DNA from: Qipengyuania sp.
GTDB taxonomy: Bacteria > Pseudomonadota > Alphaproteobacteria > Sphingomonadales > Sphingomonadaceae
Reading direction: 5' to 3'
Length of the DNA: 64,000 bases
NCBI GenBank assembly: GCA_019745075.1
Contig: JAIETR010000021.1
Location: 1-64,000, forward strand
Shown here: piece after piece, positions 6,582 through 29,746 of the stretch
How the letters are laid out: each line of letters starts with the position of its first letter
How positions within the stretch are numbered: the first letter of the stretch is position 1
Position numbers and translations under genes: made by a program
The notes under the pieces: generated by a model
The model's database searches: none
What the model was told of the DNA's origin: nothing
What the model saw: only the letters and a program-made list of their open reading frames with translations

Positions 6582-8585
6582 TTACATGCGACGCAAGTCG
6601 GGCGGGGTCGCTTCGGCCTTGAGGTGTGCGATAGCCGCTTCGAGCGAAATTACCCGTTGCGCCTGCTCGCCGAGCGTGCGCAGCGCGACCGTGCCCTCCT
6701 CCGCCTCGCGCATGCCGACCACCAGCAGCTGCGGAACCTTGGCGAGCGAGTGCTCGCGCACCTTGTAGTTGATCTTCTCGTTGCGCAGGTCGGTTTCGAC
6801 CCGGATGCCCGCCGCTTGCAGTCTCGATGCAACCTCGCGAGCATAGTCGTCGGCATCCGACACGATCGTCGCCACCACCGCCTGCGTCGGGGCGAGCCAG
6901 GCGGGCAGCCGGCCGGCGAAATGCTCGATCAATATGCCGATGAAGCGCTCGTATGAGCCGAAGATCGCGCGGTGGAGCATCACCGGACGGTGCTTCTCCC
7001 CGTCCTCGCCGACATAGCTGGCGTCGAGCCGCTCGGGCAGCACGCGGTCGGACTGGATCGTGCCCACCTGCCAGGTGCGCCCGATCGCGTCGGTCAGATG
7101 CCACTCGAGCTTGGGAGCATAGAACGCGCCCTCGCCCGGCAGTTCCTCCCAGCCGTATTCCGGCGTCGCCATGCCGGCGTCGATCACCGCCTGGCGCAGC
7201 TCGGACTCGGCCTTGTCCCAATCCTCGTCCGAGCCGTAGCGCTGCTCCGGCCGGAGCGCGAGCTTGACCGCATAGGTGAAGCCGAAGTCGCGGTAGATGC
7301 GGTCGGCGAGCTCGCAGAAGGCGCGCGTCTCGGCGACGATCTGGTCCTCGCGGCAGAAGATATGCGCGTCGTCCTGCGTGAACTGGCGCACGCGCATGAG
7401 GCCGTGCAGCGCGCCATGCGGCTCGTTGCGGTGGCAGCAGCCGTTCTCGTAGAGCCGCAGCGGCAGGTCGCGGTAGCTCTTGAGGCCCTGGCGGAAGATC
7501 AGCACATGCGCCGGGCAGTTCATCGGCTTCAGCGCCATCCAGTCGGCGTCCTTGGACACGAGGTCGCCCTCGTCCTCGGTATTCGGCGCCTCGTCGGGGA
7601 TCACGAACATGTTCGCGCGATATTTGCCCCAGTGGCCCGACTGCTCCCACTGGCGCGCGTCCATGACCTGCGGGGTCTTGACCTCGCGGTAGCCCGCGCC
7701 GTCGATGGCGCGCCGCATATAGGCCTCCAGCTCGCGCCAGATCTTGTAGCCCCGCGGGTGCCAGAACACGCTGCCATGCGCCTCTTCCTGCAAGTGGAAC
7801 AGATCCATCTCGCGCCCGAGTTTGCGATGGTCGCGCTTGGCGGCCTCCTCCAGCCGGTGGAGATGCGCGTCGAGCTGCTTCTTGTCGAGCCAGCCGGTAC
7901 CGTAGATGCGCGTGAGCTGGGCGTTCCTCTGGTCGCCGCGCCAATAGGCGCCCGCGACCCGCATCAGCTTGAAGGCGGCCGGATCGAGCTTGCCGGTGGA
8001 AGGCAGGTGCGGCCCGCGACACATATCGAGCCAATCCTCGCCACTCCGATAGACCGTCAGCTCCTCGCCTTCGGGCAGCTCGGCCGCCCATTCGGCCTTG
8101 AAGCTCTCGCCCTCGGCCCGCCACTTGTCGATCAGTTGCTGGCGGCTCCACACCTCGCGCGTCAGCGGCTTGTCGGCGCGGATGATGTCGCGCATCCGTT
8201 CCTCGATCGCGGGCAGGTCGTCGAGCGTAAACGGGCCGCGGCTCGCGGGCGCCATCACGTCGTAATAGAAGCCGTCCTCGGTGGCAGGGCCGAAGGTGAT
8301 CTGCGTGCCCGGCCACAGCGCCTGCACCGCTTCGGCCAGGACGTGGGCGTAGTCGTGCCGCGCCAGTTCCAGCGCGTCGGCCTCGTCGCGGCTGGTCACC
8401 AGCGCGAGGCTGGCGTCGCCTTCTAACGCCCGGTTGAGGTCGCGCAGTTCGCCGTCCACTCGCGCGGCCAATGCGGCCTTTGCGAGCCCAGGACCGATCG
8501 CCGCGGCGATATCGGCAGGGGTGCTGCCGGGCGGCACCTCGCGCACCGAACCGTCGGGCAGGCTGATCTTCAGAAGTTGCGTCAT
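6582..8585 (-). CDS. thrS: Threonyl-tRNA synthetase
   Basis: About 667 residues, the full bacterial length. It charges tRNA-Thr in the cytoplasm. The order is a TGS domain at the N-terminus ([21 protein letters not shown]), the editing domain with [16 protein letters not shown], the class II catalytic core (motif 2 around [20 protein letters not shown]) and a C-terminal anticodon-binding domain ([18 protein letters not shown]). The start [12 protein letters not shown] matches the TGS boundary. A threonine-rich leader peptide and mutually exclusive hairpins precede the gene, suggesting attenuation by charged tRNA-Thr. A repeat hairpin follows the stop. Confidence 0.95.
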
Positions 8586-8715
8586 CGTCTCGCGTCCAAA
8601 ATTCGTCGCGGCGCCATTGCACAGGAGCGCGGGCGGCGCAAAGCGCGGCGTCGGAGAAGCCGATGACGGGAGGAACGCCGCGCCGCCCGTCATGCCCGGG
8701 CGGCGGCGGCGGCGG
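8586..8715 (-). promoter_or_regulatory. Putative attenuator between threonine-rich leader and thrS
   Basis: This 130-base leader contains two competing hairpins. Hairpin A pairs 8686-8693 with 8663-8670 (ATGACGGG/CCCGTCAT). Hairpin B pairs 8680-8688 with 8631-8639 (GGGCGGCGC/GCGCCGCCC, 9 bp) and shares bases 8686-8688 with A, so both cannot form together. Hairpin B ends about 45 bases before the thrS start. No strong T-run follows, so the switch could act on termination or on translation. The mechanism is inferred from architecture. Confidence 0.5.
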
Positions 8716-8784
8716 CTAGCGCGCGACCGTCCGCCCCCGGGCGAAGCCGGTAGTGGTGGTAGTCAGGGTCGGCGTCTTGGCCAT
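8716..8784 (-). CDS. Threonine-rich leader peptide of thrS (22 aa)
   Basis: A 22-codon ORF beginning [14 protein letters not shown]. Seven of the first twelve codons are threonine, including five in a row, with ACC, ACT and ACG used. Such runs of the cognate amino acid are the hallmark of ribosome-mediated attenuation leaders such as E. coli thrL. The position, 130 bases upstream of the threonyl-tRNA synthetase gene on the same strand with alternative hairpins between, fits that role. No strong ribosome binding site is visible. Confidence 0.65.
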
Positions 8785-8815
8785 GCGCGCGAGATAGCGC
8801 CGCCGGCGCGCTTCA

Positions 8816-10474
8816 TCAACCCGTGAGCACGCGGCGGCCCGGCAGGGTGGTGACGCGGTGCGTGCCGGCGAGCGACGCATCCTTCTGCCGGACATTGCGG
8901 AGAAAGCGATATTCGCACGTCGCCGCGCCGGGCGTCAGCTCGACCGCCATATAGCCGCGCCGCGACGCATCGGAGAATCCGAGCGCCGGGTTCGTCTCGC
9001 GCAGCGCCTTGGCTATGCGCTCGGGCGCGATCCGGGGAAACGCGCTTTCGTAACCGGGCGAGGTGACCGATTGTCCGCCGAACTCCACGCCGGCGGGCTG
9101 GCCGCCCCGCGCAAGGTCGAAGGCCCACGCGTTGTGCGTATCGCCCGCCAGCGAGATCAGGTTCGCCTCCGCCGCCTGGGCCGCCGCGAACACCCGCTCG
9201 CGCGCCGCCGGGTAGCCGTCCCAGGCGTCCATGTTCATCGGCAGCCCGGCGCGGCTCGCGGCGGCGCCGTTCGCGATCCGCGCCCTGACGTAATCGGGCA
9301 AATCGTTCGTCGCCCACTCCAGCACTTCGGGCGGCGTGCGGGTGGCGCCCATCAGGACCTGCTGGACCAGCACCTGCCAGACCTTTCCGGCACGCCGCGA
9401 ACCCTTGAGGCCGTCCGCCAACCAGGCCTGCTGATCCGCGCCGATCATGGCGCGCGAAGGATCGCGCCAGGCGCCGTCGCGGAAGGCCGCGAGCGCCGCC
9501 TCCGCCTCGCCCGGCGCGGTCTTGCCCGCGAGGAGCCGGCCGATGTTGAATTGCTCGGCGCGCGCGGTCAGCCGCGTCTCGAGACGGAACAGCGTGGCGA
9601 GATCGCCGATCTCGTAGCACGCCCAATCCTGGTCCGAGACCGGCATCCATTCGCGGCGCGCGCGCTCCGCCGCCGCCTTGCGCGCGGACCACGGCCCCTC
9701 GGCGCCGGGTTGATGATTTTCGGCTCCGCCCTGCCACGCGTCGTTGGCGTATTCGTGATCGTCCCCCACCGCGATCATCGGGAACAGCTGGTGGAGGCGG
9801 CGCAAGTCCGGATCGCGGCGGTATTGCGCGAAGCGCGCGCGGTAATCGGCGAGCGCCACGATCTCGTGCGCGGGCTCGACACGCCGCCCCGCCAGCACCT
9901 GCTTCCCGCTCGGATAGGTGCCCGAACCGTATTCGTAGAAATAGTCGCCGAGATGGAGTACGCAGTCGAACTGGTCCGCCGCGGCGGCATGGGCATAGGC
10001 GTTGAACCAGCCGAAGCCGATGTTCGAGCAGCTGAACACCGCCATCCGGAAGCGGTCGGTTTGGCCCCGTGGCAGGGTCCTGGTGCGCCCGACATCGGAG
10101 ATCGTGCCGCCGGGGGCGATGAAACGATAGTAATACCATCGCCCCGGCGCGAGCCCGCGCGCGAGAGGCTTGGCGCAAAAATCGCGGTCGGGCGAGGCGG
10201 CGACCTCGCCCCCTGCCACCGGCCTGGCGAATTCGAGCGTCTCGGCCACCTCCCAGCGCAGCGTCGTTTCGGCCTCCGCGACAAAGCGTGTCCACAACAG
10301 CACGGAACTGGCCGCAGGCTCGCCGCTGGCGACGCCCGAGGTGAACCCCGGGCTCGCAAGCTGCGCCGAAAGCGGGGCCGCGGCGAACCCCGCGCCGAGA
10401 AGTCCGCCCCGTATCAGCGCGCGCCGGTCCAGCAGCGGCAGTGGCGCGGCGGCGGGCGGTTCGGTTTCGATCAT
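8816..10474 (-). CDS. phoD: PhoD-type alkaline phosphatase, Tat-exported
   Basis: About 552 residues. The start has a twin-arginine signal (DRRALIRGGLLGAGFAAAPL), predicting folded export to the periplasm, where PhoD enzymes hydrolyse phosphate mono- and diesters with Ca/Fe cofactors. The N-terminal PhoD domain (GVASGEPAASSVLLWTR) and the metallophosphatase core are visible: AVFSCSN, LGDYFYEYG, AVGDDHEYAND and SLAGDTHNAWAFDL. Length is usual. It lies upstream of the thrS leader on the same strand but has its own role. No Pho box was identified. Confidence 0.9.
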   Translation of the reverse strand: MIETEPPAAAPLPLLDRRALIRGGLLGAGFAAAPLSAQLASPGFTSGVASGEPAASSVLLWTRFVAEAETTLRWEVAETLEFARPVAGGEVAASPDRDFCAKPLARGLAPGRWYYYRFIAPGGTISDVGRTRTLPRGQTDRFRMAVFSCSNIGFGWFNAYAHAAAADQFDCVLHLGDYFYEYGSGTYPSGKQVLAGRRVEPAHEIVALADYRARFAQYRRDPDLRRLHQLFPMIAVGDDHEYANDAWQGGAENHQPGAEGPWSARKAAAERARREWMPVSDQDWACYEIGDLATLFRLETRLTARAEQFNIGRLLAGKTAPGEAEAALAAFRDGAWRDPSRAMIGADQQAWLADGLKGSRRAGKVWQVLVQQVLMGATRTPPEVLEWATNDLPDYVRARIANGAAASRAGLPMNMDAWDGYPAARERVFAAAQAAEANLISLAGDTHNAWAFDLARGGQPAGVEFGGQSVTSPGYESAFPRIAPERIAKALRETNPALGFSDASRRGYMAVELTPGAATCEYRFLRNVRQKDASLAGTHRVTTLPGRRVLTG

Positions 10475-10570
10475 GCAGGCGGTCTCCCCCGGAGTCCGAT
10501 CTAACCGCGATCGCGCTGCAATTCCATGACGGCGCTTGCGTTTTGCCGTCCACGTCCGACATGGCGGCGT

Positions 10571-11323
10571 ATGGACGCCCGGACGCAATTCCACACCATG
10601 CCCGACGGCCGCCGGATCGCCTTCCGGCACAATGCCGGCCGCGGCCCCGCGCTGGTGTTCCTGCCGGGTTACATGTCCGACATGGCGGGCGGCAAGGCGA
10701 GCGCGCTGTTCGCCTGGGCGGAGCGGGAAGGACGCGCCTGCCTGCTGCTCGACTATTCGGGCTGCGGCGAAAGCGGCGGCGACTTCGCGGAGGGCACGCT
10801 GACGCGCTGGCGCGACGAGGTGGCGGCGCTCGTCGAAGCCCGGACCGAGGGGCCTGTGCTCCTGATCGGCAGTTCGATGGGAGGGTGGCTGATGCTGCTC
10901 GTGGCCGAGGCCCTGAACGATGCCGGGCGCGCGCGGGTCGCGGGCCTGGTCGGCATCGCCGTCGCGCCCGATTTCACCGATTGGGGGCGCACCGCCGAGG
11001 AGAAGGCGCGCCTGGCGGCGGGCGAAACCGTCTTCGACCCCAATCCTTACGGTGCCGAGCCGACGCCGATGCACCCGGGCTTCTTCGCCGACGGACAGGC
11101 GCTGCTGCGGCTGGACAGCGAAGTCGCCATCGATTGCCCGGTTCGGCTGATCCACGGCCAGCGCGACGGGGATGTCCCGCCCGCCATCGGCCTGCGCCTC
11201 GCCGAGCGCTTGCGTTCGGACGACATACAGGTGACGCTGGTCAAGGACGGCGACCATCGCCTCTCGCGCCCGCAGGACATCGCCCTGCTGCTGCGCGCCG
11301 TCGCCGAACTGGCCGGAGATTGA
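10571..11323 (+). CDS. Alpha/beta hydrolase (ABHD10-like)
   Basis: 250 residues from MDARTQFHTMPDG; an ATG 15 codons upstream is less likely because the family starts near this point. The catalytic serine is in the nucleophile elbow GSSMGG, the acid lies in HGQRDGDVP and the histidine in DGDHRLS. The short compact form resembles ABHD10 acyl-protein thioesterase or acyl-glucuronide esterase. Substrate cannot be told from sequence. It is divergent from phoD and followed after 5 bases by a TPR gene, so probably the first gene of a three-gene unit. Confidence 0.8.
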   Translation: MDARTQFHTMPDGRRIAFRHNAGRGPALVFLPGYMSDMAGGKASALFAWAEREGRACLLLDYSGCGESGGDFAEGTLTRWRDEVAALVEARTEGPVLLIGSSMGGWLMLLVAEALNDAGRARVAGLVGIAVAPDFTDWGRTAEEKARLAAGETVFDPNPYGAEPTPMHPGFFADGQALLRLDSEVAIDCPVRLIHGQRDGDVPPAIGLRLAERLRSDDIQVTLVKDGDHRLSRPQDIALLLRAVAELAGD

Positions 11324-29661: not shown

Positions 29662-29746
29662 TGGTGCGGGCGGTGGGACTCGAACCCACACGAGCAAAGC
29701 TCAGGGGATTTTAAGTCCCCGGCGTCTACCATTCCGCCACACCCGC
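29662..29746 (-). tRNA. tRNA-Leu(UAA), CCA encoded
   Basis: 85 bases including CCA. The acceptor stem pairs GCGGGTG with CGCCCGC (one T-G pair), discriminator A. The anticodon loop CTTAAAA gives anticodon TAA. A long variable arm (TGAGC...GCTCG) marks a class II leucine tRNA, and the T-loop is GGTTCGAGTCC. Read on the minus strand. Confidence 0.95.

Follow-up and report, generated by a model that had tools for sequence, protein, structure and literature searches.

A threonine-rich, leaderless-looking leader ORF and competing RNA helices upstream of thrS in sphingomonads point to a probable ribosome-mediated attenuator

The window, by which we mean the whole stretch of 64,000 nucleotides analysed here, carries a thrS gene whose product matches the Pfam domains TGS, tRNA_SAD, tRNA-synt_2b and HGTP_anticodon, all above their cut-offs. 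This protein was the sole match to itself within its own genome. A 22-codon ORF with seven threonine codons among its first twelve had been predicted upstream of thrS and is indeed present at 8784-8716 (minus strand), with threonine at codons 4, 6 and 8-12, plus codon 19. Its stop codon lies 130 nt from the ATG of thrS (8585), and the ORF upstream of it occupies 8816..11257 (minus strand). The run of five ACN codons (Table 1) occurs once in the 64-kb window, against a chance expectation of 0.02. We also counted threonine codons in 150 leaders and observed 593 ACC, 217 ACT, 199 ACG and 53 ACA; the thrS gene of the window has neither ACT nor ACA codons.

The Rfam leader families, which include the Thr leader, gave no match at gathering score across the window and nothing at E ≤ 1 in 8560-8860. 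Similarly, the curated T-box model had no match in the window, nor at E ≤ 1 in 8560-8860. The window's only Rfam match at gathering score is a tRNA gene at 29665-29746 (minus strand).

Table 1. Features of the thrS leader region (positions in the window).
Feature	Position	Strand	Remarks
-35-like hexamer TTGATG	8814..8819	-	shares bases with the stop codon of the ORF upstream (8816..11257, minus strand)
-10-like hexamer CTATCT	8792..8797	-	16 nt past the -35-like hexamer, 7 nt before the leader AUG
Leader ORF	8716..8784	-	22 codons; predicted transcription start at or adjoining its AUG
Region 1	8749..8763	-	five Thr codons ACT ACC ACC ACT ACC; run conserved; putative stall site
Region 2	8731..8742	-	GCCCGGGGGCGG; within the leader ORF; can pair with region 1 or A; covariation weak or absent
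Region A	8697..8705	-	CGCCGCCCG; A:B covaries
Region B and part of the A:B loop	8683..8693	-	AUGACGGGCGG; pairs with A (as 8689-8681) or C
Region D	8674..8684	-	GGCGCGGCGUU; 5' strand of the terminator-like helix; mostly in the B:C loop, its two leading bases shared with B
Region C	8663..8673	-	CCUCCCGUCAU; in the D:E loop
Region E	8642..8652	-	GACGCCGCGCU; 3' strand of the terminator-like helix; short U-tract 8642-8640
CUUU, 18 nt, TGCAATGG	8614..8643	-	form of the family motif CTTY-N17-TGCCATGG
thrS, threonyl-tRNA synthetase, 667 aa	6582..8585	-	

A strict consensus scan for promoters and terminators over window positions 8400-9000 called neither. When the leaders of the family were aligned on their AUG, the resulting logo displayed T/G/A at -35 to -33 (T 62% and G 53% at -35/-34), T/A at -13 to -11 and C at -1 in 77%, a spacing that has the appearance of a promoter measured from its start site. 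For a count of this spacing, ORFs were picked by Thr content alone and the start was taken as the most upstream ATG, or else GTG, giving 12-26 residues. We observed that a CTA stands 7-9 nt ahead of the start in 111 of 142 distinct leaders, picked regardless of CTA, whereas shuffled 16-mers gave a mean of 5.9 and a maximum of 15. With a relaxed [CTG]TA at 6-9 nt the count was 127 of 142 (shuffled mean 17.2, maximum 32). At the thrS starts of the same loci, used as a control, CTA was found in 1/142 and relaxed [CTG]TA in 9/142. An earlier version, in which the start was picked without CTA but the choice of ORF favoured CTA, had yielded 116/148 (strict) and 133/148 (relaxed). Judged by this promoter-like spacing, the leader ORF looks leaderless. 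The original prediction had missed this character of the ORF.

A scan of named genomes provided 80 thrS loci of relatives. In 23 of them a Thr-rich ORF is found at the same place before thrS: by record title, 12 belong to Erythrobacteraceae, 4 to Novosphingobium, 3 to Sphingomonas, 1 to Blastomonas and 1 to Sphingopyxis, and 2 are unplaced. In the other 57 thrS loci no leader was found; for one of them (L021) the upstream DNA amounted to just 101 nt. When mapped on a tree of 81 ThrS proteins, the leader label requires 8 changes (7 forced by well-supported branches) versus 20.9 when shuffled, and carriers stand on either side of the midpoint root. The leader is clustered yet patchy, through loss, regain or transfer.

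We built a covariance model, R1, from 16 leaders. It recovers the window and 22 of the 23 carriers at E below 1e-5 (16 by construction), and L066 at 0.034; six further matches up to E 1 are weak. In 396 Sphingomonadales genomes R1 gave 147 matches in 142 genomes, all of the window's family. The thrS gene is just downstream of 140 of these 147 matches, six with one gene between; without the window's own match, thrS is in the fetched stretch for 139/146. The seven matches without thrS scored 25.1-30.5 bits and were set aside; L118, L120 and L126, which have thrS, are about as weak. One of these seven, a further match in the genome of the window, falls within another ORF. In the 109 loci that were measured, the match and thrS are always on the same strand; thrS begins at a median of 54 nt past the end of the match, with 103 loci within 163 nt and six at 550-586 nt owing to an inserted gene. 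A Thr-rich ORF conserved in relatives had been anticipated, and these counts (23/80 loci; 140/147 matches with thrS just downstream) bear it out. We also searched 385 genomes of the class and found seven with R1 matches. Four of these are of the window's own family; the other three matches (29.6-31.1 bits, no thrS in the fetched stretch) were rejected, so that this class-wide sample of 385 genomes holds no convincing match beyond the window's family.

Five alternative helices were recognised in the leader RNA: 1:2, A:B and the terminator-like D:E on one side, 2:A and B:C on the other. Two mutually exclusive hairpins had been predicted before thrS; the mutual exclusion stands, with comparative support, but the helices number five and not two. 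The A:B pairing falls after the leader stop codon. Because C is in the D:E loop and D is mostly in the B:C loop, B:C and D:E are mutually exclusive except as a pseudoknot. In the window B:C reads AUGACGGGcGG/CCuCCCGUCAU, and many relatives have UUUCGGG/CCCGAAA or a close variant. When stems were sought sequence by sequence, A:B, B:C and D:E were found in most of the 24 first sequences; L020 has none of the three, and the top stems of L047 and L080 do not include D:E. The single-sequence fold of the window is no more stable than shuffles (z -0.81). RNAalifold on a first MAFFT alignment proposed a nesting of 1:B with 2:A, in which just 2 of 17 pairs covary; MAFFT had misaligned C to E, and this structure was discarded.

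The helices were then examined by a swap test, in which the pairing of cognate strands is compared with that of strands from other genomes. From 121 sequences we took 63 representatives sharing less than 75% identity. The 121 comprise the 100 loci L128-L227, which include the six where a gene is inserted, together with 21 of the 24 first sequences (L020, L066 and L067 were dropped); loci L082-L127 entered neither this test nor the pair counts. Cognate strands were better for A:B (51/63, p=2.3e-5), B:C (56/63, p=3.7e-8) and D:E (54/63, p=3.3e-8). The result was weak for 2:A (p=0.028), and for 1:2 cognate strands were not better (p=0.16); the little covariation in these two helices is partly due to the fact that they hardly vary. 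The non-partner controls A:E (p=0.10) and 2:C (p=0.40) were negative. A cruder version, whose A:B finder often took B:C, had given 1.6e-11 for A:B, 2.9e-6 for B:C, 2.3e-3 for D:E, 0.83 for 2:A and 0.022 for 1:2, and the first crude version, with unusable D:E energies, 7.1e-13 for A:B, 7.3e-5 for B:C, 0.45 for 2:A and 0.041 for 1:2. Base pairs were also counted in 99 distinct rows of an alignment, A4, drawn from L128-L227; A4 had been adjusted to the helices A:B and D:E, and it takes in the six inserted-gene loci. In these counts 91.0% of cells are paired versus 81.2% when shuffled, 14 of 16 pairs have changes on both sides, and covariation is 0.326 versus 0.161, with 0/500 shuffles as high. 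The covarying hairpins that had been expected downstream of the leader ORF in relatives are therefore found, as A:B, B:C and D:E.

To relate ribosome position to helix choice, equilibrium folds were computed with an assumed ribosome footprint kept unpaired, for the 114 of 121 sequences that could be mapped to a leader. When the transcript was cut before E, B:C reached at least 3 expected pairs in 97/114 sequences with the ribosome stalled mid-run, in 23/114 with the ribosome at the stop codon and in 39/114 without ribosome. A stalled ribosome gave a higher B:C value than one at the stop codon in 105/114 sequences, or 56/61 when representatives alone were counted. With the transcript extended through E, D:E beats B:C in 51/114 (stalled mid-run), 97/114 (at the stop codon) and 88/114 (without ribosome); a ribosome stalled on the last Thr codon was much less favourable, D:E beating B:C in 64/114. 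In the window cut before E, B:C has 9.7 pairs when the ribosome is stalled, 5.3 at the stop codon and 9.5 without ribosome. At full length, D:E wins there at equilibrium under all four ribosome states, and switching in the window would therefore need kinetic control. In these model folds, the predicted shift of B:C with ribosome position matches the expectation for attenuation across the family, less clearly in the window.

The tract that follows E is short or weak: its consensus is CUUC, with UUU in the window and CUUUU in L079 and L067. Further downstream, a TGCCATGG-type motif is present in 128/145 carriers, its columns being inflated by the search pattern used, and its spacing to CTTY is 17 nt in 110 of these 128. 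The element CTTY-N17-TGCCATGG could be a second promoter whose -35 would overlap the terminator tail. With such a promoter active, only a share of thrS expression would be subject to attenuation. Written as a UGUGCCAU-type motif, the same element lies 31-76 nt before thrS in the 128 carriers; a hairpin at this motif is weakly supported (cognate better in 41/64, p=5e-3). At a similar position, a promoter-like element, either TTGCCT...GGCATAAG or TTGACA, can be seen by eye in many of the thrS loci devoid of the leader.

In six loci (L149, L150, L154, L175, L180 and L182) the switch is followed by an ORF of 163-168 residues and then by thrS, 550-586 nt past the switch. The product of the inserted ORF is weakly related to the Rv2179c/RNase AS exoribonucleases (Pfam E 0.0044, under its cut-off; NCBIfam 1.3e-5, with 25.6 bits versus a cut-off of 200; PDB match 5.2e-5). 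No such exonuclease-like ORF was found in 41 relatives, in a search without a positive control. In the six loci E is GGCGCG and adjoins a purine-rich stretch before the ATG of the inserted ORF, with GAGG in 3 of 6 and no U-tract. D:E is part of the minimum-energy fold of L175, L154, L149 and L150 and absent from that of L180 and L182. These loci perhaps keep the same sensor with a translational output on the new gene, the switch having been remade to hide its ribosome site. By eye, a promoter-like TTGCCTAG...CATAG precedes thrS in 5 of the 6.

Taken together, we consider it quite probable that the leader is a ribosome-mediated attenuator which tunes thrS to the supply of charged tRNA-Thr. The computed basis consists of the ORF itself, the fact that it is conserved ahead of thrS, a spacing that resembles a promoter, the covarying helices A:B, B:C and D:E, and the folding shift predicted across the family. 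The original proposal of leader-peptide attenuation is supported by the conserved Thr-rich ORF before thrS and by the covariation of the downstream hairpins. RNA polymerase would start at or adjoining the leader AUG; a transcript beginning at this AUG would allow a ribosome to load on the extreme 5' end. When charged tRNA-Thr is plentiful, the ribosome would reach the leader stop codon and cover region 2, in which case A would pair with B, C would be free and D would pair with E, so that transcription would stop before thrS. Under a shortage of charged tRNA-Thr, the ribosome would stall on the Thr codons, region 2 would pair with A, and B would be released. The released B would pair with C before E is made, D would be held in the B:C loop, and transcription would continue into thrS. 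We infer the transcription start, the stalling, the response to threonine, and termination as the output rather than RNA decay or a translational effect. For an essential gene of a large group of environmental bacteria, such a leader offers a regulatory circuit that can be tested; borrelidin is an inhibitor of ThrRS.

The same leader could sense charged tRNA-Thr with an output at the level of translation or RNA decay, D:E shaping access to the thrS ribosome site or the stability of the RNA. The weak U-tract after E agrees with this possibility, as do the six relatives in which E adjoins the likely ribosome site of the inserted ORF without a U-tract. However, E ends about 54 nt before thrS in most measured loci, which is too far to cover the thrS ribosome site directly; CUUC follows E, with CUUUU in L079 and L067, and a different family, f72 (see below), has a U6 terminator between leader and thrS. 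We regard an output of this kind as unlikely.

Autoregulation by ThrRS, in which, as in E. coli, the enzyme would bind an operator resembling tRNA within the 5' UTR and the presence of the leader ORF would be incidental, leaves the Thr run, the leaderless-looking start and the covariation of B:C and D:E unexplained. Control of this type is named for E. coli in a passage of PMC2965389, and the UGUGCCAU-type motif with its weak hairpin would fit it, but the fixed 17-nt spacing to CTTY (110/128) suits a promoter equally; we hold this explanation to be very improbable. Finally, GC-rich low-complexity DNA might just happen to encode threonine and to fold, as the ordinary single-sequence fold would allow. 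Conservation, linkage to thrS and covariation all argue against it, as does the frequency of Thr-rich upstream ORFs, 0.008 per shuffled upstream, and we attribute a negligible probability to chance. Ribosome-mediated attenuation of thrS is thus the reading that we retain.

Leader-peptide attenuation is of a classic kind, and leaderless versions as well as versions on synthetase genes are already known. Lopatovskaya et al. 2010 reportedly deal with attenuation of amino-acid and aminoacyl-tRNA operons. In the open literature searched, no thrS leader peptide was described in this group; the work of Lopatovskaya et al. is the likeliest exception. The hisL and thrL leaders of enterics are multi-hairpin attenuators of amino-acid operons, and the present leader resembles them by a peptide rich in the sensed amino acid, alternating helices and a terminator-like last hairpin. 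Unlike them, it precedes a tRNA synthetase gene, its ORF is leaderless-looking, its B:C loop holds the 5' strand of the terminator, and it has no Rfam leader match. In pheM-pheST of E. coli, a tRNA synthetase gene is attenuated via a leader rich in its amino acid, which is Phe there and Thr here, in a separate lineage.

The trpL attenuator of Sinorhizobium meliloti, where the RNA begins with the AUG of the leader ORF and a 14-aa Trp leader precedes trpE(G), as stated in a part of PMC7298713, is likewise an alphaproteobacterial attenuator with an RNA starting at the leader AUG (here predicted), whereas our leader has 22 aa, is rich in Thr and precedes thrS. In mycobacteria, leaderless Cys short ORFs control downstream genes by attenuation (Canestrari et al. 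2020, as cited in a passage of PMC9031893); they share with our case a leaderless short ORF with a single-amino-acid run, but differ in phylum, amino acid and target. For trpS2 of Streptomyces avermitilis a candidate leader-peptide attenuator was predicted, according to a passage of PMC1262725; this is again predicted leader-peptide control of a tRNA synthetase gene, in Actinobacteria and with Trp. With the leader described here, thrS would join the synthetase genes likely to be under ribosome-mediated attenuation, and attenuation would be tied to leaderless translation.

We also looked at other families of Alphaproteobacteria. From 124 genomes across the class, 60 upstreams were fetched, mainly for the better-scoring matches, one of them (G005) being of the window's own family. 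With a cut-off of at least four Thr in eight residues, 3 of these 60 outgroup upstreams have a Thr-rich ORF, versus 0.008 per shuffled upstream. In family f72, 8 of 10 loci (L296-L301, L303 and L304) have a Thr-rich, leaderless-looking ORF before thrS, such as MTYPTTATMTTTTTRCGGP, and in 7 of 10 the leader is followed by CCCTCC...GGAGGGTTTTTT, a U6 terminator. In family f73 (L335-L364), 13 of 30 loci pass the Thr cut-off and all 30 have a short, leaderless-looking ORF after a promoter-like element. When the candidate richest in terminal Thr was taken, 30/30 end with CGA ACT TGA (RT*) and 27/30 have at least 3 Thr in the last seven residues. In 25/30 of the f73 loci, the leader end would pair with the ribosome site of thrS at -6 kcal/mol or better; shuffled ends pair comparably (averages of -4.7 to -9.2), so this pairing is a lead only. 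Family f58 was rejected as a carrier: 2 of 27 loci pass the Thr cut-off, one being G445 itself, and nothing convincing was found there beyond G445. The pattern of a promoter plus a leaderless short ORF had 2 matches in the 60 outgroup upstreams versus 2.0 when shuffled and finds 3 of 24 carriers, so that the pattern alone proves little.

Since the peptides and hairpins of f72 and f73 differ from those of sphingomonads, common descent is unsupported. We give even chances to the view that leaderless Thr leaders of thrS arose, or were retained, in several alphaproteobacterial families whose RNA designs are unrelated: nested B:C/D:E helices in sphingomonads, the U6 terminator of f72, and the RT* end of f73, where the final codons of the leader may cover the ribosome site of thrS. 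According to the same view, the terminator would have turned into a ribosome-site lock before the exonuclease-like gene in six sphingomonads. If this were true, leaderless ribosome loading would be a general solution for attenuating thrS in the class. For the question of how the output of an attenuator may change while the sensor is kept, natural comparisons are at hand in these two families and in the six loci where a gene is inserted.

Two single loci of relatives deserve mention. At about 120 nt before thrS, L020 has kept the leader ORF and lost regions A-E, its stop codon being 50 nt from thrS. At about 130 nt before thrS, L065 displays, by eye, a -10-like site, a short ORF without the Thr run and a CCGCCGCCCGG hairpin; this element is perhaps a decayed leader.
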